Below, in pieces: positions 8,789 to 33,144 of a DNA stretch of 33,144 nucleotides (position 1 is the first letter of the stretch; the number at the start of each line of letters is the position of its first letter). Position numbers and translations under genes: made by a program. Under the pieces are notes generated by a model, which worked only from the letters and a program-made list of their open reading frames with translations, was not told the origin of the DNA and did not search any database. The DNA comes from Chloroflexota bacterium (GTDB lineage: Bacteria; Chloroflexota; Anaerolineae; Promineifilales; Promineifilaceae): positions 1 to 33,144 of the forward strand of contig JAGNBF010000089.1 in NCBI GenBank assembly GCA_018004935.1, in the 5' to 3' direction.

Positions 8789-8794
8789 TCTTAA

Positions 8795-9082: not shown

Positions 9083-9124
9083 CTGAGCCAGACTGAAAAT
9101 TCAGCCTCATCGAATTACTAGTTG

Positions 9125-13348: not shown

Positions 13349-14339
13349 GCAGGTGCGTGCGGCCGCAACTGAATTGATTGCGGCCGCGAATGCTCTGACA
13401 GATCAAGACAATACGTTAAACCAGATGATACAAAATCTTGATTTTTCTTGGCAAGGGCCGAGTGCTACGCAGTTCTTCCAAGAGCTGGCGCCCATGCTAC
13501 AGCAATTGCGTCAATTGGCTGAGGCTGGAACGACATTAGGTATACGGGTGCACCAGGAAGTGACAGAGTGGGAGATTGCTGATGGGCAAGGTGGTATGGG
13601 TCCAGGCGGGATTGTAATAGGGCCGGATGGCAAACCCCGATTCGACCATGATGGTAAAACTTCTCCGGGCATGGATTTTATCAGCGGCCGCGAATGGCAA
13701 ACGGGGGATCAATTTGACCCCGAATATACTGGTTTTGGGGCTACATTGATTGATGGTCAGTGGGAAACCGGCAAAGCGGCTTACAACGAAACCCTCTCTG
13801 GACGCTATGGCACTATTGAAATGCGCGGCTTAGGTTATGAAGCCGGAGCCGATGGCTCAGTCACTATCGGCGAAGATGGGTTATTGGCTGTCGGTGGGGT
13901 AAGCGCTGGGGCCTATCTGGCACAAGCTGGGTATCAAGGCGAGTTTGGTCCCGGCTACGCTACAGGGGAAGTAACGGTTGGGGCGAATGTATGGGCTGAA
14001 GGAGAGTTTGAGTTCAACCCGTTAGAAGGAGATGTGGAATTTGAAGGCGAAGTAGGGGCTTTTGCCGGTGTGAATGCTCAGGGTGAAGTGGGTGCAGATT
14101 TCGGCCCATTGGGAGGAAGTGTGGGGGGGCAAGTTGGTGTTGGTGTTGGTGCTGGCGCTAACATTGATGTGGGTTTTGACGATGGTGTTTTTGAACTGGA
14201 TTTTGGTGCCTATGCTTATCTGGGTGTTGGTGGAGGTGTAGATTACTCAATTGAGTTGGATGTGCCAGAACTGGTAGGCAATATTGTAGATGTGGGCGAG
14301 GATGTGGTAGATAGCTCCTGGATGCCCTGGAATTGGTAG
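13323..14339 (+). CDS. WXG-type secreted protein 1 with Gly-rich beta C-terminal domain
   Basis: 338 residues, starting at the ATG behind AGGAGG (about 13311-13316), inside the end of the motor gene, so probably translationally coupled. Residues 1-90 form the shared WXG-type module (MPILHMETE, W43-Q-G45, E82-W-E84). A linker follows, then a repetitive Gly/Ala-rich domain (about 150-320) of alternating small and acidic residues ending in DSSWMPWNW. This resembles Gly-rich domains attached to type VII substrates elsewhere; its function is unknown, with a membrane-inserting or structural role as guesses. Three octamers lie in the gene, two of them within 30 bp in the module. Being first after the motor, it may be a core substrate rather than a variable effector. 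Confidence 0.8.
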   Translation: MPILHMETEQVRAAATELIAAANALTDQDNTLNQMIQNLDFSWQGPSATQFFQELAPMLQQLRQLAEAGTTLGIRVHQEVTEWEIADGQGGMGPGGIVIGPDGKPRFDHDGKTSPGMDFISGREWQTGDQFDPEYTGFGATLIDGQWETGKAAYNETLSGRYGTIEMRGLGYEAGADGSVTIGEDGLLAVGGVSAGAYLAQAGYQGEFGPGYATGEVTVGANVWAEGEFEFNPLEGDVEFEGEVGAFAGVNAQGEVGADFGPLGGSVGGQVGVGVGAGANIDVGFDDGVFELDFGAYAYLGVGGGVDYSIELDVPELVGNIVDVGEDVVDSSWMPWNW

Positions 14340-15245: not shown

Positions 15246-15367
15246 GGTCTTTGGGATTTCAGGGGGTTGACACCATCTGTAGGGGCAACCCTTGTGGTTG
15301 CCCTCGGCGGGGCAGGCACAAGGCCAGCCCCTACATGTAGCCGCACCCCACGAATTCCGAAAGAACC
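15246..15367 (+). mobile_element. MITE-like repeat, family R3 copy 2
   Basis: About 122 bp, starting GGTCTTTGGGATTTC and ending GAATTCCGAAAGAACC, which are near-complementary. Internal GGGGCAACCCTTGTGGTTGCCC and GGCCAGCCCCTAC palindromic blocks are present. It ends 26 bp before the CHAP protein start, so it supplies that gene's leader. A fragment similar to family R1 (GCTGTGGCCGGT) lies upstream at about 15180-15215. Confidence 0.7.
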
Positions 15368-15393
15368 AAAAAACAAAGAACTCGGAGCGTATC

Positions 15394-16587
15394 ATGCCCA
15401 TTTTGCACATGGAAACAGACATCGTGCGTGGCGTAGGTAATCAATTGCAACAAACAGCCGATCTGTTGTCTGAGCATACACAACAATTCAATACAACCAT
15501 ACAAACCTTGAGTAGCCATTGGCAAGGCCCCAGTGCTGAAATTTTTATCTCCGATATTCACCCCATCTTACACCAACTCAACCAACTCTTTGACACCGGC
15601 ACCACCCTCAATCACCGCCTTCAACGCGAAGTAGACGAATGGGAACAAGTTGACAATCAACGTGGACTTAACAGCTTATTAGATAGCATATTTGCAGGAA
15701 CCATACCTGCAATAGCTATACTTACACAAGGTGACAATACAAAAGGATCTGTCTTAGGTGCAAATACAGTCTCTTCGTCTACGGATTTTGAACCATTGCC
15801 CTGGTCTGAGAAGTTTGCCAAACTTGAAGAGCTAGAGAGAGAAATTGCTTCACAAGAACAAAATCTAAACGGACAATCTTCTTTTGATGAAGCCGAAGAA
15901 CGGATCAAAGCTATTGACGAACAAGTGGCTGAGCTTGAAGTGGAAAAACAGCAGGCACAAGCAGAAGCCAATAAATGGTATAACAAAGTTTTACCTGATT
16001 GGCCGTTGACTACAGATGATGATGGTGTCCCCTGGCGTGTTAAAGCAGATAACTCTGAAGACGAAATAGCTCGGTCTGAACGTTCAATTGAAAACTTACG
16101 TCAATCGCGAGAAGATCTTGTAAATTTACAACAACAGCATCAAACATTAAATTCATTAAAAGAACAACGTAATTCATTGGATGCGTTGATTAGTGAGGGT
16201 ATTCCACAGGATGGTCCTGCTGATAAGTATCCGTATTTTCCAGGTCAAATTGATACAAACTGTACAAAATATGCATCCCAAAAACGATATTTCCCTCAAA
16301 ATGTTAGCGGAAATGCTTATGAATGGCCTGTTCAAGCGAAAGAGGCTGGTTATGAAGTGGGATCTTATCCAGTAAAAGGGTCCGTTGTTGCATTTCAGCC
16401 GGGTATAAAAGGAGCTCATGCTCAGTATGGTCATGTGGCTATAGTAGAAGAAGTTCGCCAATTAGATGACGGTACTTATGAGGTTCTCTATTCGGATAAT
16501 CATCACGTACCTCCTAAGCCACCGGCAAAACTTAAATATACTCAGGGTGATTCTGGCATTTCATTTATCTATGATCAACAGAGGTAG
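15394..16587 (+). CDS. WXG-type secreted protein 2 with coiled coil and C-terminal CHAP amidase domain
   Basis: 397 residues from ATG 15394, after GGAG at 15384-15387. Upstream in-frame codons lie in a repeat and are not believed. Residues 1-90 are the shared module (MPILHMETD, W43-Q-G45, E82-W-E84). A charged coiled coil follows (about 145-265). The last ~120 residues match a CHAP (NlpC/P60-like) fold with C290 in NCTKYAS, H347 in GHVAIVEE and N369 in SDNHH, a plausible Cys-His-Asn triad. CHAP enzymes cut peptide bonds in peptidoglycan, so it could open the wall for the machine or act as a toxin on neighbours. The part after the module is visibly AT-richer than its neighbours and lacks octamers, suggesting C-terminal module exchange. 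Confidence 0.85.
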   Translation: MPILHMETDIVRGVGNQLQQTADLLSEHTQQFNTTIQTLSSHWQGPSAEIFISDIHPILHQLNQLFDTGTTLNHRLQREVDEWEQVDNQRGLNSLLDSIFAGTIPAIAILTQGDNTKGSVLGANTVSSSTDFEPLPWSEKFAKLEELEREIASQEQNLNGQSSFDEAEERIKAIDEQVAELEVEKQQAQAEANKWYNKVLPDWPLTTDDDGVPWRVKADNSEDEIARSERSIENLRQSREDLVNLQQQHQTLNSLKEQRNSLDALISEGIPQDGPADKYPYFPGQIDTNCTKYASQKRYFPQNVSGNAYEWPVQAKEAGYEVGSYPVKGSVVAFQPGIKGAHAQYGHVAIVEEVRQLDDGTYEVLYSDNHHVPPKPPAKLKYTQGDSGISFIYDQQR

Positions 16588-17540: not shown

Positions 17541-18710
17541 ATGCCAGTTTTACACATGGAAACCGATAGTGTGAGAAGTACCGGGCAGGCATTAGGGAGC
17601 GCGGCCGCACTCCTGGCTGATCAAATGTTTGATCTACAGGTTAGCATTAACTCGCTGGCCAATGGTTGGCAAGGTCCCGCCAGTGAGATGTTCATCGCAG
17701 AAATCACCCCATGGTTACGCCAACTTACCCAACTGACCGATGAAGTGAGCACCCTGCGCGACCGTGTGTTTCGGGAAGCCGATGAATGGGAACGGGTAGA
17801 TAGTATGATGGGTGGTGCGGCCGCGACCTTGGGTGCTTTATTTGCACAGCAAGTTCACCAGGCCGCCATGCAAACAGCCATAGGTGTCATGGCACGTGAC
17901 TTAGCTGAAATCGCACATACGACTGCCATATTCCACGATATGTCTCCCATATCGCCTGATAGCTGGCGCAGTGATTGGCAATGGCATTTTGATCCAATTG
18001 ATATGATTGACTGTATACCACAAGGAGCACGACCTGACGGGGCACCATCAACTGAATTAAGTAATGCAATGGCACAACTATCAGATCTGGTTTCGCATGG
18101 CATAGACGATATTGACCCTGTAACGGAACAGAAATTACTGGAGACAATCGCAAACCAGCGTGGTCTCACTTATGAGCAAGTTGTAGGCGACTACCGCAAA
18201 TTCCTAGGCTTAATCAAGGACAACCCTCCTGCGCCTACAGACCGGGCAGAATATTGGGGAACCATACAGCAATTACGCTTTGGCACAGTCGTGGGAGATA
18301 GTTTAGGCATTGATGCTGTATTTGGGTCACTTTTAAGTCCAACCGGTGGTCTTGTTGGCCCTTCAGAAGGACGAGTCATTCATGATGTTCTCTACAGACC
18401 AGATTCAGCTCTTGCCTATCATGGTATCTACCACGACGCCGCAGGCTTTTTTGCCCGAGAACCTTATAACCTGACGCCCAGCTATGAATATGTATTGACC
18501 ATAGAAGAAGATAGACGATTTGAAGGGCCATTTGCTCCTATCCTTGACATGGATAAGTTCAAAGCATTGGATGGGCAGGAAACAGGAATTGCCTTTTGGC
18601 ATGAGTTGCTTAAGATAAATGGCAAAAACCCCGCTGGTTCTTCTTCCGATCTTCCTAAATCTAGAGGAGCTGGAGGAGGTGGGGGTGGCGGCGGAGGTGG
18701 GGCGTGGTAA
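17541..18710 (+). CDS. WXG-type secreted protein 4 with unknown C-terminal domain containing YHDAAG motif
   Basis: 389 residues behind AGGAGG (about 17531-17536). Residues 1-92 are the shared module (MPVLHMETD, W43-Q-G45, E82-W-E84). A small-residue helical stretch (about 95-130) could touch membranes. The C-terminal domain (about 250-370) has RVIHDVLYRPDS and YHGIYHDAAGFF, placing H294, H298 and D299 close together, followed by a Gly-rich end (GGGGGGGGGG-AW). I do not recognise the family; the His/Asp cluster suggests a hydrolase-type effector but this is not shown. No obvious immunity gene follows: the next gene is an FHA membrane protein after a 338-bp gap. Confidence 0.75.
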   Translation: MPVLHMETDSVRSTGQALGSAAALLADQMFDLQVSINSLANGWQGPASEMFIAEITPWLRQLTQLTDEVSTLRDRVFREADEWERVDSMMGGAAATLGALFAQQVHQAAMQTAIGVMARDLAEIAHTTAIFHDMSPISPDSWRSDWQWHFDPIDMIDCIPQGARPDGAPSTELSNAMAQLSDLVSHGIDDIDPVTEQKLLETIANQRGLTYEQVVGDYRKFLGLIKDNPPAPTDRAEYWGTIQQLRFGTVVGDSLGIDAVFGSLLSPTGGLVGPSEGRVIHDVLYRPDSALAYHGIYHDAAGFFAREPYNLTPSYEYVLTIEEDRRFEGPFAPILDMDKFKALDGQETGIAFWHELLKINGKNPAGSSSDLPKSRGAGGGGGGGGGGAW

Positions 18711-19048: not shown

Positions 19049-20401
19049 ATGTCGAATGGGCGGAGCTTGCCCCAAAACCGGATACCCCTTATGCCACATT
19101 TTCTGATACGCCCCTTATTACCAGATGGTTATCGCCCACGCTGGTTGGTGCTGTTCCTAGTTTGCCTGAGTGGTGGTCTTCTTTTTCTCTGGTTAATGAC
19201 CCCGATGGGTAGGGCGCAGGCGCAAACCGCCGCCCTTGAAATTGAGAGCGACCCACCAATAGTTGTTTTGGGCACAAACCATACGCTCACTGTTACCATT
19301 TATTACACAATTCCGGCAGATGTACCCGTAACGACACCGTACACTCTTTATTACTTTGTGCCGGATGAACAAAATGGTTTGATGTTGAGCCAAACAGACC
19401 CCGGTGATCTTTCCACTGGCAATGGTTTGCATCCATTGACGAATCAGCCAGTTCGTTTTTGGGATATTATTCCGGGCATTCAACCTACCAGATTATTTAC
19501 GGTTCATCTGAATGTCTTGGAATTCGCTACCACGGGAGTGTTTACTCATATAACCGAGTTGGTCAACGCGGCCGCGCCCAATACTGTTATCGTCTCCGCG
19601 ACAGCCACAACGGTATTAACCACTGCTGTTCCTATCCCTAATGGTCTCCCCACCCTGGCAACGCCAACCGTCTCTTTGACGCCAACAATCCCTATTACCC
19701 TGGTTACTCCTGTTCCTCCGCCATCCACGATCCCCCCTTCCCCTATCCTGACACCCTCTCCCCCTATACCACCATCTACCTGGACACCCCAACCAACGGT
19801 GACACCTACCCTGGCTCCAGAAATAGTAGCTTCGCCAACGATAACCATACCTCAAGTCATCGCCACATTACCATCACCCCCGAGTCCATACCCGGCAGAC
19901 TTATTCAATAAGAGTGGGTTGTTTCTGATCTTGTTACTATTTATGGGATTATTGGTTGTGGTAGGTTTGGGCGGGATTCTCTTTTTGTGGTCAAGGAATC
20001 GGCGCAAACCTACCCCCCGGCCAATCATTCCGAAATCATCATTGCCGACCATTGCTTTGCCCGCGGCCGCGTCCCCTTCTGCCCTACCTGAAGCCTACCT
20101 GACCGATGTTACCGGCAAACCGCTGGCTATCACCACTCCCACCTTTACCATAGGCCGGGCCACTGACAACCAACTTGTGATAGATGCCCGCTTCCCCGAG
20201 TGGGAAACCGTCTCCCAATACCATGCCACCATCAGTCGCTCCCCCAGAGGTTATATCATCGAAGACCGGGGTTCACGGAATGGCCTGCGTGTGCAAGGCC
20301 GTCCGACCCCCAAAAATTTGCTCCAAAATGGGTATACTATCCATTTAGGTGACGTATCATTTACTTTTCATCAACCCGCGGAATCAGGAGGGCGTGCATG
20401 A
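19049..20401 (+). CDS. Membrane protein with beta-rich outer domain, Thr/Pro stalk and cytoplasmic FHA domain
   Basis: 450 residues from ATG 19049; ATG 19091 is an alternative and neither has a clear ribosome site. A signal peptide (about 31-59, ending AQA) leads to a beta domain (about 60-190), a long Thr/Pro-rich stalk (about 195-285), one membrane helix (about 290-315) and a cytoplasmic FHA domain (about 355-448) with IGRA, SQYHAT and SRNG motifs intact. It mirrors the first gene of the window in topology and would read phosphothreonine inside while contacting something outside. Its stop overlaps the next start (ATGA), so it is coupled to the zinc-ribbon/pseudokinase/PP2C protein, its likely partner. 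Confidence 0.85.
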   Translation: MSNGRSLPQNRIPLMPHFLIRPLLPDGYRPRWLVLFLVCLSGGLLFLWLMTPMGRAQAQTAALEIESDPPIVVLGTNHTLTVTIYYTIPADVPVTTPYTLYYFVPDEQNGLMLSQTDPGDLSTGNGLHPLTNQPVRFWDIIPGIQPTRLFTVHLNVLEFATTGVFTHITELVNAAAPNTVIVSATATTVLTTAVPIPNGLPTLATPTVSLTPTIPITLVTPVPPPSTIPPSPILTPSPPIPPSTWTPQPTVTPTLAPEIVASPTITIPQVIATLPSPPSPYPADLFNKSGLFLILLLFMGLLVVVGLGGILFLWSRNRRKPTPRPIIPKSSLPTIALPAAASPSALPEAYLTDVTGKPLAITTPTFTIGRATDNQLVIDARFPEWETVSQYHATISRSPRGYIIEDRGSRNGLRVQGRPTPKNLLQNGYTIHLGDVSFTFHQPAESGGRA

Positions 20402-22041
20402 TCACCTGCCCTAATTGCCAAAGCCAAAACCAACCCGGCAAACGTTTTTGCACCAGTTGTGGTCTGGCCTTGCCCAACGCACAACTGCCCGAAAATACCC
20501 GGCAACTGCCGGATAATAGTGCCATACCGCCGGATAGCGGCCGCAATACCAAACCCTTGACCAGCGCTCCATCATTTACCCCCCTGCCTGATGGTGCCAT
20601 CATCGCCGAACGTTTCCTGGTGCGACAACAATTAGAATCTACCCCTTACATCTTTAGTTATGTTGTAGAAGATACCACCAATCCCGAACGACCCGACTAT
20701 TACATTCTACGAGATGCTCAAGAATATGGTCGCTTTGGCATTGAGATGGATATAGCTAATTTGCCTTTAAAAGGACCAGGGTTGCGGCCGCCCTTTCACC
20801 TCTTTCAACAAGCTATTGGTGGCATCACCCGTACCTTTCTGGTTTACCCACAACCCAGTACCCCCTTGCGCAATCTGCCCCTACCCTTAGAACTACCCAA
20901 AGTGGTTAATTGGGGTGCCACTCTAGCCAAGGCTTTAGCCGCACTACACCAACACCAAATCGTTTTTGGACAGATGACACGGCAAGATATTCAGGTAGAT
21001 GGAGATAATATTTTTCTGGCCGATTTTTCTCATTGCCTCAAACCAGGCACTCCCTCCTTATACCAGGAAGATGTCCGTTATTTGGCGCTTATTCTTCATA
21101 AATTGCTTGGCGGCGAAAACTCAGATACACCTGTCATTAACTTGCCAGAACCACTCCAACAGTTATTAACCCAACACATTAACCGCAGTCTGGTTCTGAC
21201 AGCCCCCGAATTTGCCCAGGCCCTGGTTCAAATTGCCGGTAACTTGCGCCGACCATCGGCTGTTGACTTACGAGTAGGACGACGTACCGACGTGGGCATG
21301 ATACGTCAACTCAATGAAGATAGCCTATTGGTGATGGACATCGTTTGGAATAACCGGTCTGTGAGTAACCCCATAGGTTTATTTGTGGTGGCAGATGGCA
21401 TGGGAGGGCATGAAGGGGGGGAAGTTGCCAGCGGTATGGTGACACAAACGATAGCTCAACAGGCAATGGTGGCTTTATTAGAGCCAAATACGGGTCTTAT
21501 CAAATCTACTGTGGATGTATCTCAATGGCTGAGTGAGGCAGTACAAACCGCCAATCTGAAGGTATTTCAACAGAGCGAGCAGGCACAAAATGATATGGGG
21601 TCAACGGTTGTAGCTGTTTTGATGCAGGGTAACCAAGCCACGATTGCCCATGTAGGCGATAGCCGTGTTTATCATATCCATGCCGAAGGAATTCGGCGCA
21701 TTACCATAGACCATTCTCTGGTGGAGCGTTTAGTTGCAACCAATCAGATCAGCCGAGAAGAAGCCCGACACCACCCCCAGGCCAATGTCATTTACCGCAC
21801 AATGGGTGACAAAAAGAAGGTAGATGTGGATATTAATGTGGTTCCTATTCCTTTGGGTGATTATTTGCTTCTCTGCTCGGATGGTCTGAGTGGAATGGTA
21901 ACGGATGAGCGTATTCACCAAATCGTTATCACTGCTACCTCCCCTCAATCTGCCTGTGATCTGCTTATCCAGGCGGCTAATGCGGCGGGCGGAGAAGATA
22001 ATATTACCGCAATACTTATAAGGCCAGAGGCTATTCAATAA
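20398..22041 (+). CDS. Zinc ribbon, kinase-like (pseudokinase) and PP2C phosphatase fusion
   Basis: 547 residues. A four-Cys zinc ribbon (C4, C7, C18, C21) comes first. Residues about 65-270 thread onto a protein kinase: GAIIAERFLVRQQL resembles the start of the N-lobe, ALAALHQHQIVFGQM the helix before the catalytic loop, and LADFSH (D209) the DFG strand. The catalytic HRD Asp and the DFG Gly are missing, so it is probably a pseudokinase. The C-terminal PP2C domain (about 290-545) is complete: RQLNEDS, D333-G-M-G-G, GSTVVAV, VGDSRVY, SDGL and EDN. The pseudokinase may position substrates or regulate the phosphatase. It overlaps the FHA gene by four bases and is followed five bases on by a second PP2C. 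Confidence 0.85.
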   Translation: MITCPNCQSQNQPGKRFCTSCGLALPNAQLPENTRQLPDNSAIPPDSGRNTKPLTSAPSFTPLPDGAIIAERFLVRQQLESTPYIFSYVVEDTTNPERPDYYILRDAQEYGRFGIEMDIANLPLKGPGLRPPFHLFQQAIGGITRTFLVYPQPSTPLRNLPLPLELPKVVNWGATLAKALAALHQHQIVFGQMTRQDIQVDGDNIFLADFSHCLKPGTPSLYQEDVRYLALILHKLLGGENSDTPVINLPEPLQQLLTQHINRSLVLTAPEFAQALVQIAGNLRRPSAVDLRVGRRTDVGMIRQLNEDSLLVMDIVWNNRSVSNPIGLFVVADGMGGHEGGEVASGMVTQTIAQQAMVALLEPNTGLIKSTVDVSQWLSEAVQTANLKVFQQSEQAQNDMGSTVVAVLMQGNQATIAHVGDSRVYHIHAEGIRRITIDHSLVERLVATNQISREEARHHPQANVIYRTMGDKKKVDVDINVVPIPLGDYLLLCSDGLSGMVTDERIHQIVITATSPQSACDLLIQAANAAGGEDNITAILIRPEAIQ

Positions 22042-22046
22042 AAATT

Positions 22047-22844
22047 ATGTATATTGATGTTTGGGGTGAGACAGACCCAGGACAAGCTCGTCCTGATAAT
22101 CAGGACAACCTCTTTTTTGTGCATGGGCAAGGGTCTGATGTGTCGCCCCGGCAGATACAACAGAGTGGTCTATTGTTGGTCATTGCTGACGGTTTTGGCC
22201 AGGGGACATTAGGGCAGGAAGCCAGCCGTTATTTGCTCCATGATGTGGTACAAGGATATTACCGTGCTGGGAGTCATAACGCGCCAGAAAATCTACGCAT
22301 AGCCATTTGTGATGCCAATGAAAACGCGGCCGCACATTTTCCCCAGCAAAACGCGGCCGCAACGCTTATCGCGGCTGTCATTATGCAAAACCAACTTCAT
22401 CTGGCCCACATTGGTGAATGTCGGGCCTATCTTTTACGTCAGGGTACGATGCGCCAACTTACCACTGACCATGTGGAGCGAGGGCAGGTGACTCGTTACC
22501 TGATTGCTGATCGCCAAGCTCAACCAGACCTGCTATTACCCATTGAATTATATCCTGGGGATCGGTTGCTTCTTTGTTCAGATGGTCTGTACGATCCCTT
22601 TCCAGACGCGGCCGCGATCCATCAATTGGCCCGTTCTGGTTCACCCCAACGGTCCGTACGCCGCCTTATTGAGAAAGCCAACCAACAGGGTGGCCCAGAC
22701 AATATCAGCGTCATCATTGCCGATGTTCAAAATGCACATCCCCTGGCGGGCTGGCAAAAAGTAATACTCCTGGGACTCACTGTGTTAGCCTTGCTGGCTT
22801 GCCTGGGATTTATCGCCGAAATCATCCGTGTGTTATCCAACTAA
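22047..22844 (+). CDS. PP2C-family phosphatase, C-terminally membrane-anchored, partly degenerate
   Basis: 265 residues. It shows a PP2C frame: RPDNQDN, D48-G-F-G-Q (normally DGxGG), CSDGL and GGPDNIS, with the main metal-binding Asp residues present. However GDSRAYL reads GECRAYL, and the usual M-G-[ST]-T strand is replaced by N-A-A-A-T, where AAA comes from a GCGGCCGC octamer at 22353. Activity may be reduced. A single membrane helix (about 235-258) ends the protein, with the catalytic part inside. It starts five bases after the previous stop, with no clear ribosome site, so coupling is likely. Three octamers fall in this short gene. Confidence 0.8.
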   Translation: MYIDVWGETDPGQARPDNQDNLFFVHGQGSDVSPRQIQQSGLLLVIADGFGQGTLGQEASRYLLHDVVQGYYRAGSHNAPENLRIAICDANENAAAHFPQQNAAATLIAAVIMQNQLHLAHIGECRAYLLRQGTMRQLTTDHVERGQVTRYLIADRQAQPDLLLPIELYPGDRLLLCSDGLYDPFPDAAAIHQLARSGSPQRSVRRLIEKANQQGGPDNISVIIADVQNAHPLAGWQKVILLGLTVLALLACLGFIAEIIRVLSN

Positions 22845-22852
22845 ACTAATTC

Positions 22853-22973: not shown

Positions 22974-22990
22974 CCTAATTCCTTTTGCTT

Positions 22991-23779
22991 ATGACAACCA
23001 GACCACCTACTTCCTCATTGTCCGAAATTCCGATAAACGTTTGGCAACAGATGGCGACCAAATTGGTTATGCTAGGGCAGGCAACAATGCAAGCCTATGC
23101 GGCCGGAGAATTGGATCATCCGTCATTGCTTCCGTTGTGTATGGAAATTGTCAGCCTGGAGCCACAGTTGTTCCCGAGCAAAACTGAAATGGATGACCCT
23201 GCCCCGTCCCCTGTGGTCGCCCCGGTTCCCTCTGAATCGGTGAGTCTGCCCGAACCAGCGCCGGTTCTAAAACCACGGTTGCCTGAACCGGAGATAGCCC
23301 CTGCCCTGAATAAGGGAACGCCCACCCTCGTGACCCATTACACGCCGCCGCCATCTGCGCCGGTGTTGACCTGCCAACAATGTGGGACGCCGTTAGTGCC
23401 AGGGCGTAAATTTTGCACCCGTTGTGGGGCATCCGTTATGCCAACTGGGGCGATTACGCCTGCCAACCAGAGTCAACCCAGTACAGCTACGCCTACCAAG
23501 GTTAAGTGTACTTCCTGCAATGAGGTGGTACCGCCTGATGCCCTTTTTTGTACCAATTGTGGTTACCAACTGCGGCCGCAAAATCCCGGTGTGCCTGTTT
23601 CGCGGCCGCTGGCACCGACGGTAGTAATGTCTCCCCCCATCCCGACCGCCGGAATTATTCCTTCCTCAGTGGGAACCCCCTCTAGCTCCATTACCCAATA
23701 TTGCAACAATTGTGGGTTGGGTTTACCGGCAACTGTAACGGTTTGCCCGGACTGTGGTAGCCGTGATATTGGCAATTAA
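22991..23779 (+). CDS. Triple zinc-ribbon protein
   Basis: 262 residues from ATG 22991 (TTG 22985 also possible). A short helical N-terminus (about 10-60) and a Pro-rich linker precede three CxxC...CxxC zinc ribbons: CQQCG...FCTRCG, CTSCN...FCTNCG and CNNCG...VCPDCG. There is no enzyme domain. It is an adaptor-like protein, probably mediating contacts among the signalling proteins, several of which carry the same ribbon type. The next gene starts three bases after its stop, with no clear ribosome site. Confidence 0.75.
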   Translation: MTTRPPTSSLSEIPINVWQQMATKLVMLGQATMQAYAAGELDHPSLLPLCMEIVSLEPQLFPSKTEMDDPAPSPVVAPVPSESVSLPEPAPVLKPRLPEPEIAPALNKGTPTLVTHYTPPPSAPVLTCQQCGTPLVPGRKFCTRCGASVMPTGAITPANQSQPSTATPTKVKCTSCNEVVPPDALFCTNCGYQLRPQNPGVPVSRPLAPTVVMSPPIPTAGIIPSSVGTPSSSITQYCNNCGLGLPATVTVCPDCGSRDIGN

Positions 23780-23782
23780 TTC

Positions 23783-24757
23783 ATGGTAATGACATCTATT
23801 TCTGCTCCCCAATGTGCTTATTGTGGCACGACCAACCGACCAGAAGCCCGGTTTTGTTATCAATGCGGCCGCGCTCTTGCCCCCCTCGTCAATGGTCTCA
23901 ATCCGGCCCTGACGCCTACCATGCCTCTGCCCCTGTTCCCCCCCAAAGGGATCACATTGCGGTATGGTTTTCAGTCTGACAGAGGCCGGGAGCGGCAAAA
24001 CCATGAAGACAGTCTGATTACTGTGCAATTAACCGGTATGGTAGAGGGATTTATTCCGGTGACGTTGGGCCTGTTTGCCGTGGCAGATGGTATTGGGGGG
24101 AGCGAAGCCGGAGAAATTGCCAGCCGCATGGCGCTCTATTACCTGTCTTGGGAAATTGTGGAACGGACCTTTAAACGAGTGACGGTCAGTGCTAATCATT
24201 CCCCGTACCATTTGGACCGACGATTAAATACTGGTTGGTTAGAGCGAACACTAAAGGCGAGCATTGTCAGGGTGAACCAGGCACTTTACCAGATGCGCCA
24301 ACAACGCGGCAACAATATGGGAACAACCCTCACGGCCGTTTTGAGCCTGAACGAGTACGCGGCCGCGGCCAATGTGGGTGATAGTCGTACCTACCTCTGG
24401 CGGCAGGGGCAGTTGCAACAACTGACTACCGACCATTCTCTGGTCGCCGCCCTCATGGCCGCTGGGGAAATTACGGATGAAGAATCCCTTTACAACCATA
24501 CCCAAAAAGGTATCATTTACCGCAGTTTGGGTGAAAGAGAGAACGTCGAAGTGGACACACATCATTTGCAGTTACAAACCGGTGATGCCCTGGTTTTGTG
24601 CTGTGATGGGTTATGGGAAATGATTCGCCCCACAGGGATTGCCACCATTCTCGGTTACGAAACCGACCCCCAACGGGCCTGTGATGAGATGGTTTACCGG
24701 GCTAATCTCGCTGGGGGTAAAGATAATATTTCCGTTGTTGTCGTTGCTGTTTCGTAA
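23783..24757 (+). CDS. Zinc-ribbon PP2C Ser/Thr phosphatase, soluble
   Basis: 324 residues from ATG 23783; ATG 23789 is also possible. One zinc ribbon (C11, C14, C25, C28) precedes a full PP2C domain (about 55-324) with RQNHEDS, D102-G-I-G-G, MGTTLTAV, VGDSRTYL, CDGL and GKDNIS. No membrane helix is seen. It is the third PP2C of this block and the fourth in the window. The ribbon probably brings it to shared partners. Octamers fall in the ribbon (encoding C-G-R) and just before the VGDSR strand (AAA). Confidence 0.88.
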   Translation: MVMTSISAPQCAYCGTTNRPEARFCYQCGRALAPLVNGLNPALTPTMPLPLFPPKGITLRYGFQSDRGRERQNHEDSLITVQLTGMVEGFIPVTLGLFAVADGIGGSEAGEIASRMALYYLSWEIVERTFKRVTVSANHSPYHLDRRLNTGWLERTLKASIVRVNQALYQMRQQRGNNMGTTLTAVLSLNEYAAAANVGDSRTYLWRQGQLQQLTTDHSLVAALMAAGEITDEESLYNHTQKGIIYRSLGERENVEVDTHHLQLQTGDALVLCCDGLWEMIRPTGIATILGYETDPQRACDEMVYRANLAGGKDNISVVVVAVS

Positions 24758-24796
24758 CAGTTTTTGTGACCTGTTATGTGGCTGTACTCAGTTTCT

Positions 24797-24886
24797 GGTG
24801 TGACGCTACGGGATGGCTCGAGCCGATCTCCTGATCGTGCTCGTTGTGGCCTGGTAGGGACACCGGTCACAGCCCGTAAGTCCTAA
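24797..24886 (-). repeat. Dispersed 90-bp repeat, family R1 copy C (inverted orientation)
   Basis: Read on the minus strand, this aligns with copy A at 81-170, including TTAGGACTTACGGGCTGTG, the GATCAGGAGATC centre and CGAGCTCG-like flanks. It is separated by only 16 bp from R3 copy 4. Confidence 0.6.
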
Positions 24887-24902
24887 GGTCACAAAATGCT
24901 TT

Positions 24903-25013
24903 GGTTCTTTGGGAATTCCAGGGGGTTGACGCCAGATGTAGGGGCTGGCCTTGTGCCAGCCCCGTGTGGGGCAACCACAAGGGCTGTCCGTACCCCACAA
25001 AACCCAAAGAATC
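24903..25013 (+). mobile_element. MITE-like repeat, family R3 copy 4
   Basis: About 111 bp with left end GGTTCTTTGGGAATTC and right end AAAACCCAAAGAATC. It holds the inner GGGGCTGGCCTTGTGCCAGCCCC palindrome and a GGGGCAACCACAAGGG block. It ends about 21 bp before the vWA gene start. Confidence 0.7.
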
Positions 25014-25034
25014 AATGCTTTTAGGTTATACACC

Positions 25035-26291
25035 TTGAATGAACTTATATTAACCGTTACCTTAAACAAATCAGCCTATCCTGTACTGGATACGGAACAG
25101 CTTGGTTATGTGCTGGTAGAAGCCAGACCGACAATCCCGGCTGGTCAGGAACAATCGCGTCCGCCACTCAATTTGGCCCTGGTGTTAGATCGTAGTGGTT
25201 CTATGGCCGGGGAAAAATTAGATAACCTGAAACGGGCGGCGCGGCTGGTAGTACAGCGGTTATCCCCTCAGGATATGCTCACGATTATCCTGTTTGATGA
25301 TCGGGCAGACATATGGGTTCCCTGCCAATTTGTGAGGGACCCTCAAATGTTTTTGGCGCGGATTGAGGCGATTCAGGAACGAGGTGGCACACACTTATCC
25401 ACTGGTCTGGCGGCCGGTTTACAACAGTTACAAACTGTAGCCGGAGCGGGGCGGGTGAATCGCCTGATTTTACTGACGGATGGAGAAACGTGGGAAGATG
25501 CCGATAAGTGCCGCGAATTGGCGCGGCAGGCGGGACAATCTGGGGTGGTCATTACCGCTTTGGGGTTAGGTGAAGAATGGAACCAGCAACTTTTGACTGA
25601 TATAGCCGTTTTCTCTGGGGGAAACTGGCATTATATTGATGATCCGGCCCAGCTCGCGGCCGCGTTTCAGAATGTTGTATCTACCATGCAAGCCACCACC
25701 ATCACCAACGTGAATCTGATTTTACGGTTACTGGAAGGGGTGCGGCCGCGAACTGTCTGGCGCGTTACCCCTCTCATTGACCGCCTCTCTCATCAGGCCC
25801 TCTCCGCCCGAGATGTCCAGGTTTATTTGGGTGATTTACAAATTGGCGGACAATCTGCTCTGGTAGAATTGACCTGGCCCCCACGCCAGGCAGGACATTA
25901 CCGTCTGGCGCAGGCCGAACTCCGGTATGATCAGCCTTTAGAAGGTCTGATGGGACAAAAAGTCCAACAGAATATTCTGGTTTCGTTTGCTCAAACTGGG
26001 GATACTCCCCCGGATGGCCGAGTGATGAATGTGGTGGAAAAAGTAACCGCCTTTAAACTTCAAACCCAGGCACTGGCTGATGTTTCCTTAGGACACATGG
26101 CCCAGGCAACACAGAAATTGCGTGCGGCCGCGACCCGCCTCCTCAGTTTAGGTGAGGAAGAAAAAGCTCAGGAAGCGCTTAACCTGGCGGAACAACTTAA
26201 TGCCGGTCAAGCCCTCTCTGCCCGACAAACTAAACGGTTTTATAGTGCGACTCGTAAGCTGGATACGGGTGAGTTACTACCGGGAACTTAA
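25035..26291 (+). CDS. vWA domain protein with intact MIDAS
   Basis: 418 residues from TTG 25035, chosen because upstream codons lie inside an R3 repeat and homologous proteins usually begin a few residues before this strand. The vWA domain (about 45-225) has a complete metal site: D52-R-S-G-S, the Thr of GGTHLST (about 119) and D149 in LLTDGE. A beta-sandwich segment (about 235-340) and a helical C-terminus (about 345-418) follow. No signal peptide or membrane span is seen, so it is probably cytoplasmic, with metal-dependent binding to a partner in the signalling block. Three octamers are present. Confidence 0.85.
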   Translation: MNELILTVTLNKSAYPVLDTEQLGYVLVEARPTIPAGQEQSRPPLNLALVLDRSGSMAGEKLDNLKRAARLVVQRLSPQDMLTIILFDDRADIWVPCQFVRDPQMFLARIEAIQERGGTHLSTGLAAGLQQLQTVAGAGRVNRLILLTDGETWEDADKCRELARQAGQSGVVITALGLGEEWNQQLLTDIAVFSGGNWHYIDDPAQLAAAFQNVVSTMQATTITNVNLILRLLEGVRPRTVWRVTPLIDRLSHQALSARDVQVYLGDLQIGGQSALVELTWPPRQAGHYRLAQAELRYDQPLEGLMGQKVQQNILVSFAQTGDTPPDGRVMNVVEKVTAFKLQTQALADVSLGHMAQATQKLRAAATRLLSLGEEEKAQEALNLAEQLNAGQALSARQTKRFYSATRKLDTGELLPGT

Positions 26292-26366
26292 ACATTGAGT
26301 AGCATGGGTGTCATCCTATAGCTGTACAAGAAATTGACTCGTCAGGTACTAAAAGAGGTAAACGTA

Positions 26367-27320
26367 ATGAACCCCATTTGTCAACAATGTGGTACGCCCA
26401 ATATTTCTGGCGCAGCTTTTTGTGATAACTGCGGCTCCCAATTTTTATCAGGAGATAGTTCTGGTAATTCCACCCTGGCCCCTACACAAGTACCACCTTC
26501 TCCACCTGTGGTTGTGGCTTCTGCGGGGCCATCCCCACTCGCCAGAGCCACTACCTGTTCTATCTGTGGTGTTCCCTATCAGGCAGGAGAAGCTTATTGT
26601 GGCAACTGCGGCGCACCCCTTCCTCAAGCCTCTTCTTCTCCACCAGTAGTCAATTACCCAGCACCTCCTGTCATGACTCCCGTCGCGGCCGCGGGCAATA
26701 TTTGCCCCCAATGCGGTACCCCTAATGAAGCAAGTTCCGTTTTTTGTGATAATTGTGGCGCTAGCCAATCCGCACCAACACCCGGTGTTTACGCATCCGG
26801 CGGCGTTTACCCACCGCCCCCCCCACCGCCGCCGGTTACTTATCCTCCCGCGCCCCCGATCCCTTACCCTCAACCGCAGAGCCAGGGTAATTACGGAAAT
26901 CCGCCGATGCCCCCTGTGCATGTGCTTCCGCAGAACCAAAGCAACTATCCACCTCCGAACCCAAATCCCTATGAACAAAGACCACAATCTGCGTCCACCC
27001 CTCGATTGGTGCTCCAGGCCAACAATGTGGTACTACCTTTCCCGGCAGGCAAAACGGTGCTGATTATTGGGCGAGAAGATGCCGTAAGTGAACACTTTCC
27101 GGAACTTGACCTGGGACCTTATGGGGCCGAGCAACTGGGTGTATCGCGTAGTCATGCTCGTTTTACGGTTCAGGGTAATCAGGTTTTTATAGAAGATATG
27201 CAGGCTGTTAATTACACCTTTGTTAATCGGCAAAAACTAGCACCTCATACCCGCCACATCCTACAAAATGGTGACGAAATTCGTTTAAGTAAGATGGTAC
27301 TACTCTTTTACCTTCAATAA
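26367..27320 (+). CDS. Triple zinc-ribbon FHA domain protein
   Basis: 317 residues from ATG 26367, preceded by AGAGG at 26354-26358. Three zinc ribbons (CQQCG...FCDNCG, CSICG...YCGNCG, CPQCG...FCDNCG) alternate with Pro-rich linkers (about 1-135). A long Pro/Tyr/Asn-rich disordered stretch (about 140-210) leads to a C-terminal FHA domain (about 215-317) with IIGRED, SRSHAR and a VNYTFVN turn where NG is usual. No membrane segment is present. It is a soluble phosphothreonine reader probably linking kinases to other zinc-ribbon partners. Confidence 0.85.
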   Translation: MNPICQQCGTPNISGAAFCDNCGSQFLSGDSSGNSTLAPTQVPPSPPVVVASAGPSPLARATTCSICGVPYQAGEAYCGNCGAPLPQASSSPPVVNYPAPPVMTPVAAAGNICPQCGTPNEASSVFCDNCGASQSAPTPGVYASGGVYPPPPPPPPVTYPPAPPIPYPQPQSQGNYGNPPMPPVHVLPQNQSNYPPPNPNPYEQRPQSASTPRLVLQANNVVLPFPAGKTVLIIGREDAVSEHFPELDLGPYGAEQLGVSRSHARFTVQGNQVFIEDMQAVNYTFVNRQKLAPHTRHILQNGDEIRLSKMVLLFYLQ

Positions 27321-27857: not shown

Positions 27858-28868
27858 ATGCCACTGACAACGGGTTATGTTTTAAATGATCGTTATCGCA
27901 TTGTGAAACAAATCCAACGTGGTGGTTTTGGTGCTGTTTACCGAGCCTGGGATGTAGTGTCCCGGCAACCTTGTGCCGTTAAAGAAAATCTGGAAACCAA
28001 TCTCAAATCTCAGGAGCAGTTTCAGCGGGAAGCTACTTTGATGAGCAATTTGCATCATCCTAGCCTGCCCCAAGTGACTGATCATTTTGTCATTCCTGAG
28101 CAAGGGCAATATTTGGTGATGGATTTTGTGGAGGGCCAAAATCTAGAGCAGATTTTGCAACAACAAGGGCGACCGTTTCAAGAAAGTGAGATTATGGAAT
28201 GGGTGGATCAGGTATGTGATGCTTTACATTATTTGCATACCCGCCAACCCCCCATCATTCATCGGGATGTGAAACCCGCTAATATCATTATTAACAGCCA
28301 GCGCCGGGCAATACTGGTGGATTTTGGTATCTCCAAAGTATATGACAAACGGTTGACTGCTACTGGTGCGGTAGCGGTTACACCCGGTTATAGCCCCCCA
28401 GAGCAATATGGGCGTGGTCAGACGGAAGCCCGGACGGATATCTATGCTCTAGGGGCTACTGTCTATGTTTTGCTGACGGGCAACCGGCCTCCCATTAGTC
28501 TGGAGCGTATGGCGAATATGAAAAGTATGCCTGCTCCGCGTCAGGTTAACCCGCAAATTTCGGGAATGGTGGATCAGGCAGTGATGAAGGCGATGAATGT
28601 GATGCTGGTAGATCGGTATAGTACCATCGCTGAGTTTCGACAGGTGTTGAGTTTTCCGCGCTCAGGGGTGGCGGTAAAGTTGGATGCGGTGCGAACACCT
28701 TTGCCCGTGGCACCGGTTACACCTGTAGTAGCGAATGGGGAGAAGGTTCGCGGCCGCAGTCGGTGGCCGCTCATTTTATTGTTCGGGGGCATTTTTCTGG
28801 CCGCGTTGTGTACCATTGTCGTGGTTATACTCCTGGTATTATTGGAAGCGGGCATTTTAGGGACATAA
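27858..28868 (+). CDS. Membrane-anchored Ser/Thr protein kinase 1 of three tandem paralogues
   Basis: 336 residues. The kinase domain (about 10-270) has GGFGAVYRA, K42 in CAVKEN, H135-R-D137-V-K-P-A-N, DFG at D155 and SPPEQYG. A linker leads to one membrane helix (about 305-330) and almost no outside part, so it is the ectodomain-free member of the set. AAGGA nine to ten bases upstream supports the start. The next kinase follows after five bases. It probably phosphorylates Thr sites read by the FHA proteins. One octamer lies just before the membrane helix. Confidence 0.93.
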   Translation: MPLTTGYVLNDRYRIVKQIQRGGFGAVYRAWDVVSRQPCAVKENLETNLKSQEQFQREATLMSNLHHPSLPQVTDHFVIPEQGQYLVMDFVEGQNLEQILQQQGRPFQESEIMEWVDQVCDALHYLHTRQPPIIHRDVKPANIIINSQRRAILVDFGISKVYDKRLTATGAVAVTPGYSPPEQYGRGQTEARTDIYALGATVYVLLTGNRPPISLERMANMKSMPAPRQVNPQISGMVDQAVMKAMNVMLVDRYSTIAEFRQVLSFPRSGVAVKLDAVRTPLPVAPVTPVVANGEKVRGRSRWPLILLFGGIFLAALCTIVVVILLVLLEAGILGT

Positions 28869-28873
28869 ATTTC

Positions 28874-31330
28874 ATGCCGCTCATTCAAGGACAGTTATTA
28901 AATAACCGTTATCGTATTGCTCGCCTTATTGGTCAGGGTGGTTTTGGGGCGGTTTATCGGGCCTGGGACACGGCCATCAACCAGCCTGTAGCCATCAAAG
29001 AAAACCTGGATACCGGCCAAGAAGCCCAAAAACAGTTTTATCGGGAAGCCTCATTTTTAGCCCGTTTACGTCACCCCAATCTGCCCCGGGTGACAGACCA
29101 TTTCACCATGCCTGGTCAGGGTCAATATTTGGTGATGGATTTTGTCGAAGGGCAAAACCTGAAGGAATTGTTGCTCACCCGAGGACAACCATTTAGCGAA
29201 GTAGAGGCTTTGCCCTGGATTGAACAGATTTTCGACGCTTTAACTTATTTGCATGGCCTGACTCCGCCCATCATTCATCGGGATATTAAACCCGCCAATA
29301 TCATCATCACCCCAGACGGGAAACCGATGTTGGTGGATTTTGGGATTTCCAAAATTTACAATCCCGACTTTTCCACCACTGTGGGGGCTAAAGCTGTTAC
29401 GCCGGGTTATAGTCCGCCAGAGCAATATGGCGGAGGTATGACGGATGCTCGGGCAGATATTTATGCTATGGGAGCCATGCTGTACACGATGCTTACCGGC
29501 AAAGAACCGCCGGAGAGTGTGCAACGAATGGCCGGAGCGGTGAAGATGACGGCTCCGCGCCAGGTGAATGCCCAGATTACCCCAACTCTGGAAGCGGCTA
29601 TTCTGAAAGCGATGGAAGTAAATACTACTCAGCGCTTTCAAAATGTGGCTGAATTTCGGCGGGCGTTGCATCATTCGCTGGCTGTTCCCTTGCCGAAAAA
29701 GAAACGAGGTGGCCTGATCTGGCTGTTGGTGGGTGGGGGGATGATTATGGTGTTAGGGGTGGCTATTTTGTTGGCTATGCTGTTGACAACGATAAACGAT
29801 GACCCTACAAAAATTCCTACCGAACTGGCTACGGTAACGGAGGAGATCGCGGCCGCGCCCACAGAAACGATGGCCGTTACGGAGACGCCTTCCCTGACTC
29901 CTTCATTAACTGCAACGGTTACCGCCTTTCCCCCTACAAATGAGGTTGTGGCTCCAACCGAAGAGCCTACGGCTACGCCCACCTTTACCCGTACTTCTAC
30001 GCCCACTCGCACCGCCACAGCTACACGCACGAGTGCATCGGCTTCTGTGGGTGTGTCCCCAACTTTTACCCTTTCGTCTACTTCAACAACAGCGCCTGCG
30101 GCCGCGGGCTGTTCTATGGGGGGTGGTTCGGCTAGTTCCGGTGGGGGGTTGCCTCTTACTTTTGAGTCGTTTGGTAATTGGGTGCGGGGCAATGAGAACA
30201 ATGGGGCCATTGTGTCTACAGGGGAGCGGGTGCATGGCGGCGCGGCCGCGGCACGCATTTGTTACAACTTCCCGGCGGAGAGCAATGATTACGTTGTTTT
30301 TCTCCAATTTAATGCCATAAGCGGCTCTCCCAATGCCTTACAACTTTGGGTTTATGGCGATGGTACTGGTCATTATTTCAATATTTGGATTCAGGATAGT
30401 GATAGCCAGACATGGCAAGTGCCCATGGGTCGTCTCACGCATACGGGTTGGCAACAGATGACTGGTTTCATTCAAACCGGTCAGGTCTGGCCCTGGCAGG
30501 CAATCAGTGGCACGGATAATGGCATTGTGGATTACCCTATCCAATTTCGTGCCTTTGTTATAGATGATCGCCCTGACACGTTTACCGGCGAGAGTATCAT
30601 TTATGTGGATGATTTAACGGCAACGACGCTAGATCCAGGCAATTTACCGCCAACGGCCACACCTGGGTCAGGAAATGCGGCCGCGACAGCCACGCCTTCT
30701 GCTGTAGGGACAACCATCTCGGTTGCAACCTTGCCCCCCGGCAGTGTCGGCCAAATTTTATACACCGCCAGCAATACCCTGATGACCACCAATCCCGATT
30801 GGAGTATGGGGAGAGAAGTGGGTACAGTTTCCAGTAATACCTGTGGCACAACGGCTACGACTGTCAGTGGTCAAAGTTACAACCTGTTCCGAGGGTATCG
30901 CTGTGGTATACCCCAAACCATCAGCACTTGTGCTTCACCTAACGGGGCGTATGAAATTGTGATTGATGCCCAAGACCCCAATAACGCCAGCCTGTTAGTG
31001 CGTCCCACAGGGAATGCCAGTGCCGTGCAATTTGTTTATCAAGGGGTATTAGATCTACAGGACGGATTACAATGGTCCCCTGGCAGTACCACCTTTCTTT
31101 TTAGCATTGGTACCGATACCTATGCCGGTTATCCCTCTGGGGGTTATGACCATATTTTGTCCCAGGGATATGAACCATTTTTCTCTCCTAATGGGTCCAG
31201 CCTGTTGTACCGAAAGCCGGTGGGACCTGGCGTTTATGATATTTTTGTCAGTAATGCGGATGGTTCCAATGAGCGTAATGTGACGAATGCGTCTAGTGTC
31301 AACAAAACGTGCGCCGTATGGCGGAATTAA
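28874..31330 (+). CDS. Receptor-like Ser/Thr kinase 2 with carbohydrate-binding-like and beta-propeller-like ectodomain
   Basis: 818 residues from ATG 28874, five bases after the previous stop; codons further up overlap the preceding gene. The kinase domain (about 10-270) has GGFGAVYRA, AIKEN, H135-RD-I-K-P-A-N and VDFGIS. A membrane helix (about 280-305) and a Thr/Pro stalk (about 310-410) follow. The outside part begins with a beta-sandwich (about 425-590) resembling carbohydrate-binding CBM11/CIA30-type folds, then a region (about 625-818) with SPNGAYEIVI, LQWSPGSTTFLFS and FFSPNGSSLLYRKP strands typical of TolB/PD40 propeller repeats. It likely senses a wall sugar or extracellular ligand. 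Four octamers lie between the stalk and the second outer domain. Confidence 0.9.
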   Translation: MPLIQGQLLNNRYRIARLIGQGGFGAVYRAWDTAINQPVAIKENLDTGQEAQKQFYREASFLARLRHPNLPRVTDHFTMPGQGQYLVMDFVEGQNLKELLLTRGQPFSEVEALPWIEQIFDALTYLHGLTPPIIHRDIKPANIIITPDGKPMLVDFGISKIYNPDFSTTVGAKAVTPGYSPPEQYGGGMTDARADIYAMGAMLYTMLTGKEPPESVQRMAGAVKMTAPRQVNAQITPTLEAAILKAMEVNTTQRFQNVAEFRRALHHSLAVPLPKKKRGGLIWLLVGGGMIMVLGVAILLAMLLTTINDDPTKIPTELATVTEEIAAAPTETMAVTETPSLTPSLTATVTAFPPTNEVVAPTEEPTATPTFTRTSTPTRTATATRTSASASVGVSPTFTLSSTSTTAPAAAGCSMGGGSASSGGGLPLTFESFGNWVRGNENNGAIVSTGERVHGGAAAARICYNFPAESNDYVVFLQFNAISGSPNALQLWVYGDGTGHYFNIWIQDSDSQTWQVPMGRLTHTGWQQMTGFIQTGQVWPWQAISGTDNGIVDYPIQFRAFVIDDRPDTFTGESIIYVDDLTATTLDPGNLPPTATPGSGNAAATATPSAVGTTISVATLPPGSVGQILYTASNTLMTTNPDWSMGREVGTVSSNTCGTTATTVSGQSYNLFRGYRCGIPQTISTCASPNGAYEIVIDAQDPNNASLLVRPTGNASAVQFVYQGVLDLQDGLQWSPGSTTFLFSIGTDTYAGYPSGGYDHILSQGYEPFFSPNGSSLLYRKPVGPGVYDIFVSNADGSNERNVTNASSVNKTCAVWRN

Positions 31331-31354
31331 GTTGAATGTTTTCCAGGCAAACCC

Positions 31355-33144
31355 ATGTCATTAGATAAAGGGCAGATTTTACAAGGTCGTTACCGTATAG
31401 TGGAGTTAATTGGCCAGGGCGGCTTTGGGGCGGTGTACCGGGGGTGGGATATGACGCTGGGTCGCCCTTGTGCTGTTAAGGAAAACCTGGACACTAGCGA
31501 AGAAGCGCAACGGCAATTTCAGCGCGAAGCGACGCTTCTGGCTAAATTAAGCCATCCCAACCTGCCCCGTATGGCGGATCATTTTTTTGTGCCCGGCCAG
31601 GGACAATATCTGGTCATGGATTTTGTGCAGGGGCAAAGCCTGAAACAGCATCTGGTAGAACGCGGCCGCGCCCTTAGTGAGGCGGAGATATTACCCTGGA
31701 TTACTCAGGTATGTGAAGCCCTTATTTACCTGCATAGTCAAACCCCCCCCATCATTCATCGCGATATTAAACCGGATAATATCATTGTGACCCCAGAAGG
31801 GCGGGCCATGTTAGTGGATTTTGGCATCTCCAAGGTATATGATGCCCAGTTTTCCACGACTATGGGAGCACGGGCGATTACTCCCGGCTTTAGTCCGCCA
31901 GAACAGTATGGTATAGGTAAAACGGCTCCTCATACAGATGTCTATGCCATTGGGGCAACGCTTTATATGTTATTGACCGGGCAACAGCCCCCGGAAAGTG
32001 TGGCGATTATTGCCGACGAGAGCGCTTTGCCACCCCCGCGCCAGATAAATCCTACTATCTCGATACGCACGGAGCGGGCCATTCTGTTGGCGATGGATGT
32101 CTCTACGACGCGCCGGTTGCCGAACGCGGCCGCGTTGCTGACAGCACTTCAAGCTAACTCGCAGGGTTTACCTGGAATCTTACCCATCAATCGTCGCCGG
32201 ATAGGCCTGGTGGTTATAGGGGTAATAGGCATTTTAATTCTGGTTGCGGCCGCGTTTCTACTCCGGTCTTTCTCCACTGCGGACACCACTCCTACCCCTG
32301 TGGTGCCTGTCGCGGCCGCTACAACCCCCATCACCACCCTCATCACCCCTGCGCTTAGCACCACCCCTAACCCCGCCTTATTAGATGAGGACCAAGATGG
32401 TTTGACCAATGCTCAGGAAGATCAACTTGGCACCGATCCGATGAACTCTGATACAGATGGTGATAACCTGGATGACGGAGCCGAACAGTTACAGCATCAG
32501 ACTGATCCCCTAAACAAGGACAGTGATGCTGATTTATTGACCGACGGAGATGAGATTGAGCAGTACCTGACTAACCCCACACTGGCTGATAGCGATGGTG
32601 ATAACCGTACCGATGCCATAGAATTGGCGGAAGGAACAGACCCCTTGGTAGCACCAACCACAACCCCCTCGCCATCCCCTTCCGCCATTGCCACACCGAC
32701 AGATCATCCCCCTGCCACTCCTACCTCAACCGTCACCCCGGCCTGTCCGGCTATTTCTGGGCCTTTTGCTAATGCCTGGGGCCAGGTGAAAAATGACATT
32801 GGCTGTGCCGCCAATAATGCGGTTGCCGGAGTTATCGTGGAAGAAAACTTTGTGGGTGGCAAAATGTTCTGGCGTGAACCAATTGATTATGCCCAGGCGT
32901 TGGTTTTATTTGACAATGGCACATGGCGTATTTACAGCCATGCCCCTTACAATGAAGGAGACCCCGAATACCCCTGTACAGATGCCAATACTCCGGCTCA
33001 ATCTCCGCCCACTCCTCGGCGGGGATTTGGCACAATGTGGTGCGATATTTCCGCCATTCGTAATGGGTTAGGAAATGCAACGGATGTGGAAAGAGCGTTT
33101 AATGGGACAATGCAGAGTTTTGAGAATGGTTTCATGGTAGCTAC
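31355..33144 (+). CDS. Receptor-like Ser/Thr kinase 3 with calcium-type repeats in the ectodomain (3' end outside the window)
   Basis: At least 596 residues, open to the window edge with no stop. The kinase domain (about 10-270) has GGFGAVYRG, CAVKEN, HRDIKPDN and VDFGIS and is closely similar to the two preceding kinases. A membrane helix (about 283-305) and a Thr-rich stretch follow. Residues about 343-415 hold several D-x-D-x-D-G-type units (DEDQDGLTN, DSDTDGDNLDDG, DSDADLLTDGDE, DSDGDN) like thrombospondin type 3 calcium repeats. A Pro/Thr stalk and a further outer domain (from about 455, with several Cys) are cut off. It starts 24 bp after the previous stop without a clear ribosome site. 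Four octamers are present. Confidence 0.92.
   Translation, partial: MSLDKGQILQGRYRIVELIGQGGFGAVYRGWDMTLGRPCAVKENLDTSEEAQRQFQREATLLAKLSHPNLPRMADHFFVPGQGQYLVMDFVQGQSLKQHLVERGRALSEAEILPWITQVCEALIYLHSQTPPIIHRDIKPDNIIVTPEGRAMLVDFGISKVYDAQFSTTMGARAITPGFSPPEQYGIGKTAPHTDVYAIGATLYMLLTGQQPPESVAIIADESALPPPRQINPTISIRTERAILLAMDVSTTRRLPNAAALLTALQANSQGLPGILPINRRRIGLVVIGVIGILILVAAAFLLRSFSTADTTPTPVVPVAAATTPITTLITPALSTTPNPALLDEDQDGLTNAQEDQLGTDPMNSDTDGDNLDDGAEQLQHQTDPLNKDSDADLLTDGDEIEQYLTNPTLADSDGDNRTDAIELAEGTDPLVAPTTTPSPSPSAIATPTDHPPATPTSTVTPACPAISGPFANAWGQVKNDIGCAANNAVAGVIVEENFVGGKMFWREPIDYAQALVLFDNGTWRIYSHAPYNEGDPEYPCTDANTPAQSPPTPRRGFGTMWCDISAIRNGLGNATDVERAFNGTMQSFENGFMVA

Follow-up and report, generated by a model that had tools for sequence, protein, structure and literature searches.

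In a 33,144-base stretch of Chloroflexota DNA (the window, which is a single entire contig, C85, of a 7.98 Mb genome), the sensing and signalling halves of receptor kinases are, to judge from sequence, mixed beside a secretion-system locus, because the outer parts of the tandem kinases K1, K2 and K3 are unrelated and relatives mount them on different kinases. Modular receptor kinases are already known. Exchange of outer parts between kinase classes, rather than just among K1-K3, is well supported by the trees, and we consider it probable that K1-K3 form one sub-family serving a neighbouring cassette of vWA, PP2C and FHA genes, with outer parts that are interchangeable modules traded with other kinase classes.

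Table 1. Features of the window, in order of position.
Feature	Position	Strand	Remarks
Membrane FHA protein of type VII-like locus	284..2329	+	
Kinase of type VII-like locus	2590..3522	+	no membrane helix found
Receptor-type PP2C	3519..5348	+	phosphatase, membrane helix residues 313-331, outer domain ~4671-5144 common to kinases
YukD ubiquitin-like + FHA protein	7534..8148	+	
EssC/EccC-like FtsK ATPase	9122..13348	+	
WXG100-like protein	13278..14339	+	just under cut-offs
CHAP-domain protein	15292..16587	+	
WXG100-like protein	17541..18710	+	under cut-off
Membrane FHA protein of cassette	19049..20401	+	
Zinc-ribbon PP2C phosphatase	20398..22041	+	
PP2C phosphatase	22047..22844	+	
Zinc-ribbon protein	22985..23779	+	
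Zinc-ribbon PP2C phosphatase	23783..24757	+	
vWA protein	24951..26291	+	
Zinc-ribbon FHA protein	26334..27320	+	
K1 Ser/Thr kinase	27858..28868	+	membrane helix residues 311-329, no outer domain
K2	28874..31330	+	kinase ~28910-29635, membrane helix ~29723-29785, Thr/Pro-rich linker, outer part
K2 FlaA-like beta-sandwich ectodomain	30149..30643	+	Pfam PF04620, PDB profile matches to FlaA chains; limits as cut for searches
K2 propeller-like ectodomain	30704..31327	+	PD40 in 8/13 aligned members; limits as cut for searches
K3	31355..33144	+	kinase ~31391-31996, membrane helix ~32207-32263, outer part; contig end cuts K3
K3 TSP3_bac repeats	32390..32647, approximate	+	Pfam match
K3 LGFP-like module	32720..33142	+	LGFP matches in aligned members, PS1-chain profile matches

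K1, K2 and K3 are real Ser/Thr kinase genes that follow one another on the + strand, separated by 5 and 24 bases. HRDxKPxN and DFG are intact in every one of them, and hydropathy places a single membrane helix in each; they have the kinase fold, the HRD and DFG motifs and the helix that mark Hanks-type receptor Ser/Thr kinases. K1 lacks an outer domain because it stops 7 residues past its helix. The start of K2 is at 28874, a longer frame from 28763 running into K1, and the frame of K3 is still open at the contig end, with about 20 residues missing judged by its nearest relative. The sequence-only reading had described tandem kinases followed by no outer part, by a CBM-like plus propeller-like part, and by a calcium-repeat plus further domain. 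Much of this layout holds, and the individual domains can be named more closely. The first K2 domain is a FlaA-like sandwich (PF04620, E 4.9e-9, 38.4 bits against a cut-off of 25), matched in 13/13 members aligned with the K2 outer part, and the propeller is a weak PD40 match in K2 itself (E 0.041, under cut-off) with a best E of 6.5e-5 among the aligned members. The calcium repeats of K3 are TSP3_bac repeats (E 3.9e-7, Pfam). A Pfam search of the module that follows them gave no match for K3 itself; we call it LGFP-like from matches in 7 of the 11 members aligned with it (best 1.3e-6) and from profile matches to PS1 chains (E 0.0045 and 0.016). Single-sequence structure prediction gave a mean pLDDT of 35.9 for the K2 outer part and 38.0 for the K3 module. 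As a separate observation, two open frames of 1043 and 859 aa (L007 on C77 and L005 on C175) each carry two kinase domains in a single chain.

The kinase domains had also been called near-identical. This was wrong, because their identities are 56.7-62.9% in protein and 61-65% in DNA. Among the 65 protein-kinase matches of the genome, K1-K3 lie inside a 17-kinase clade (SH-aLRT 100), and in a 35-row tree with relatives they fall in a 7-row subclade of moderate support (90/89), together with the genome's own C70 and C131 kinases and two kinases of G032, a relative of another genus. By a clear margin, the row nearest K2 in the 35-row comparison is one kinase of that genus, G032 C665 (68%), which is 58% identical to K1 and 64% to K3, values at least as high as those among the window's own copies. 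K2 is thus closer to a copy elsewhere than to K1 or K3, the outcome that the sequence-only reading had named as speaking against it, and K1 and K3 come close to a tie. Placing K1, K2 and K3 in one clade lowers the lnL by 4.88 (AU p = 0.335, not rejected), and the tree neither supports nor rejects a local duplication of just these three. Among the named entries of the genome collection, the kinase that matches K2 best is from an Anaerolineales MAG (49%), and six weaker named matches come from several phyla. These matches and the Thr/Pro-rich linkers point to a likely origin in Chloroflexota.

The outer part of K2 is single-copy in its own genome, where a search for a second copy found none, and it is matched in 59 of 396 class genomes, its own counted (E <= 1e-20). 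We examined 32 rows bearing it, made up of 29 of the relatives' 65 matches and three rows from another search: a kinase is present in 20 of these (19 genes), and in the other 12 FlaA-like rows the frame was read without a kinase match, in some since the contig begins there. On a kinase tree of 83 rows (65 own kinases and the 18 relatives with enough kinase), the K2-outer-part label needs 8 changes. The K2 kinase itself sits in a 10-row clade (98) that contains none of the 18 relatives carrying a K2-type outer part, and the 11 relatives that combine FlaA, propeller and kinase all lie outside it. Forcing the 12 FlaA + propeller kinases into one clade was 707 log-likelihood units worse (AU p = 4.5e-44; the AU tests were run on quick trees). 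The carriers are also more clustered than expected by chance, with only 2 of 500 label shuffles as low. In two relatives (G324 and G238) the K2-type outer part is mounted on a C66_2592-type kinase from the wider clade, and the own kinase C218_59335, whose outer part differs, groups with the carriers of G010 and G328 (96).

Compared with the LGFP-like module of K3, that of a G015 kinase from another class is about 72% identical and that of the own kinase C140_8983 is 40% identical. On a 70-row tree 5 changes are required for the 7 kinases that carry this module, which are likewise clustered beyond chance (as few changes in 6 of 500 shuffles), and placing them in one clade is rejected (AU p = 6.9e-11). 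The comparison of kinase phylogeny with ectodomains in relatives, which the sequence-only reading had proposed as its check, therefore finds the two incongruent, with a single kinase origin rejected for both the K2 and the K3 parts. Orthologous kinases can differ in the same way: C131_723 and its G032 orthologue on C411 are 84% identical (99/95), and the former carries an FGE-like fragment and the latter a WD40 propeller, with the reservation that C131_723 may be a broken gene because its FGE-like part is a fragment. Both C131_723 (L128:45-1505) and C70_2921 (L028:2885-3787) lie close to contig starts and appear truncated, either past the kinase domain or within the FGE-like part. As a control in the opposite direction, C140_1747 and G032 C148 (100/96) keep one M14-like outer part, at 67% identity in the kinase and 51% in the outer part. 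Of the proposed duplication with ectodomain exchange, the exchange is thus borne out and the local duplication of just K1-K3 is not.

How recently might such exchanges have taken place? We looked for near-identical DNA tracts linking outer parts from different genes, as recent exchange would leave, and found none; the comparison reported matches outside kinase domains or above 85% identity, leaving aside neighbouring-frame overlaps and one frame listed twice, and those lying outside kinase domains share 66-77% identity along 65-664 bases. This would suit an ordinary paralogous expansion, in which old, diverged kinases received their outer domains by ancient independent fusions and have no special tie to one another or to the cassette, as would kinase identities of just 57-63% and the presence of TSP3 and FGE-like parts on several kinases of the genome. 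We regard such an expansion as unlikely, if the most serious of the alternatives, as it does not account for an orthologue pair with different outer parts or for kinases that adjoin vWA, PP2C and FHA genes in the loci fetched for vWA.

The most unusual part is that kinases share an outer domain with a phosphatase. The outer domain of the receptor-type PP2C is 56-57% identical to that of the own kinase C140_10818 and 38% identical to that of C140_12686, and the DNA of the PP2C and C140_10818 is 72% identical over 311 bases outside the kinase domain. A search of 298 class genomes (E <= 1e-6) located this domain in 4, the window's own genome included; G029 also has it, found by a separate route, and in G304 it is likewise on a kinase. 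In three relatives (G029, G034 and G021), a receptor kinase bearing a homologous domain (28-34%) lies between the small kinase and YukD, the same position that the receptor PP2C phosphatase takes in the own genome, for a tally of one phosphatase against six kinases. A by-eye label for the domain, "FecR-like", was dropped, as Pfam finds nothing there. We propose, tentatively, that one outer sensor has been placed on opposite enzymes, such that a swap would turn the response to its opposite sign or create kinase/phosphatase pairs that read a single cue in push-pull fashion. PASTA-bearing PP2C phosphatases, as described in PMC12088040, likewise show one outer domain type on both kinases and PP2Cs; unlike in those, the outer domain here is of another type, and a kinase takes the same gene slot in relatives.

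The cassette upstream of K1 spans 19049-27320 and comprises an FHA protein, three PP2Cs, zinc ribbons, a vWA protein and a zinc-ribbon FHA protein. It recurs in the loci we read: among 16 vWA loci, a kinase is present in 16, PP2C in 14, FHA in 14 and EssC in 1, the window itself. For the 10 loci fetched for their vWA gene the counts are kinase 10, PP2C 9, FHA 10 and EssC 0, and for the six in which a kinase was not known beforehand they are 6, 5, 6 and 0. With kinase, PP2C and FHA beside vWA and no EssC, the cassette is separable from the secretion system. In G035, G038 and G036 (L171, L173 and L175) a core of PP2C, vWA, zinc-ribbon FHA and kinase stands in identical order, and G037 has vWA, FHA and kinase in a locus cut by the contig start. 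The genome as a whole has 10 PP2C_2 matches, 4 of them on the window's contig, and 27 FHA matches. By eye, GR and SxxH are kept in the four FHA domains, and the zinc-ribbon FHA has NY in place of the usual NG. It is from this vWA/PP2C/FHA cassette that we infer several outside cues feeding one inside pathway, as the sequence-only reading had it; a pathway shared by K1-K3 is plausible, if unproven.

The type VII-like locus (284-18710, which also includes a DcrB-like protein) holds an EssC/EccC-like ATPase that matches the family profile over almost its whole length at E 1.2e-177, with a score of 592.9 bits that stays under the equivalog cut-off of 778.4. Its two WXG100 candidates score 26.8 and 22.9 bits against 27.3, the first also 35.4 against 44.85, and its YukD (PF08817, E 1.7e-9, 38.7 bits against a cut-off of 27) is fused to FHA. 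G029 and G034 have counterparts of the locus, and G021 has one as far as its contig end, where no ATPase is in view. The ATPase itself has near full-length matches in G029, in G034 on two contigs, and in G057 (29%), whereas FtsK matches in other relatives are partial or multi-domain. Type VII loci that combine a kinase, a phosphatase and FHA are already known; what links K1-K3 and the cassette to this one is adjacency. That they are its dedicated regulator, as TscD-type kinases may be in T7SSc, we consider somewhat less likely still than paralogous expansion. The genes are adjacent and on the same strand, and PMC11217815 describes a type VII locus that includes a kinase, a PPM phosphatase and vWA; however, the type VII module already contains a kinase and a receptor enzyme, no vWA match shows in the type VII stretches read in G029, G034 and G021, and the cassette is found repeatedly in loci that lack EssC. 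It is very improbable that K1 and K3 are broken, K1 as a truncated receptor in an array that is partly an assembly product, for although K1 has no outer part, the contig end cuts K3, and C70_2921 and C131_723 look truncated, the K1 motifs are intact, its stop comes just after the helix with the K2 start 5 bases on, and the final 500 bases of the window have no match elsewhere in the genome.

Collectively, these data lead us to favour a sub-family of kinases that serves the cassette and trades its outer parts. A single membrane helix and a Thr/Pro-rich linker would connect each module to its kinase, and the most likely ligand of each outer domain is a glycan or protein of the envelope or surface. 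Ligand binding would cluster the kinase, which would then phosphorylate cassette proteins; FHA proteins would bind the phospho-threonine and PP2Cs would reset the signal. Such a series, from ligand through clustering and phosphorylation to FHA reading and PP2C reset, is the standard logic for parts of this kind. K1, with no outer part, may be an amplifier or a partner, and the output may include the adjoining type VII-like secretion locus. The same kinase, phosphatase and FHA logic operates in the threonine phosphorylation pathway of the T6SS. Its kinase and FHA protein are cited in PMC11217815. Unlike in the T6SS, the ATPase here is EssC-like, and no T6SS family exceeded its cut-off in the window scans (NCBIfam covered 8 window proteins).

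Several other known systems resemble parts of this one. K1-K3 share the kinase-helix-outer-part layout of the Hanks-type receptor kinases PknB and StkP, which carry PASTA repeats, and the K2 kinase has profile matches to chains of StkP (E 8.9e-37) and PknB (E 1.4e-33). A Pfam search of K1-K3 gave no match to PASTA repeats, and their scores of 199-226 bits against the NF033483 cut-off of 450 place them outside the PASTA (PknB/Stk1) kinases. Varied outer parts on bacterial kinases, WD repeats in Chloroflexus among them, are reported in PMC1262709. In the T7SSc and T7SSe of Gram-positives, an ATPase, WXG100, YukD-like protein, kinase, PPM phosphatase and vWA/FHA proteins share one locus, for which a similar phospho-signalling logic is raised (PMC11217815, whose main text does not mention Chloroflexota); unlike there, the window has several kinases with different outer parts and a YukD fused to FHA. 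Actinobacterial GAP1-N2 systems, described in PMC7159879, likewise place a kinase (often with a zinc ribbon), PP2C and vWA side by side; here, unlike in those, FHA proteins are added, and no GTPase appeared in the Pfam scans of the window. The TerY-P triad is another possible comparison; neither of the two papers that the literature search listed for it mentions TerY. A search for earlier reports of such swaps in Chloroflexota returned general papers only, with subscription journals mostly outside its scope.

The genome offers kinases and a phosphatase whose sensor and catalytic halves have recombined in nature, so that pathway specificity under a change of ligand is testable by domain swaps. 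If the proposal for the phosphatase is true, a kinase and a phosphatase that share one sensor would be a simple case of evolutionary sign inversion.
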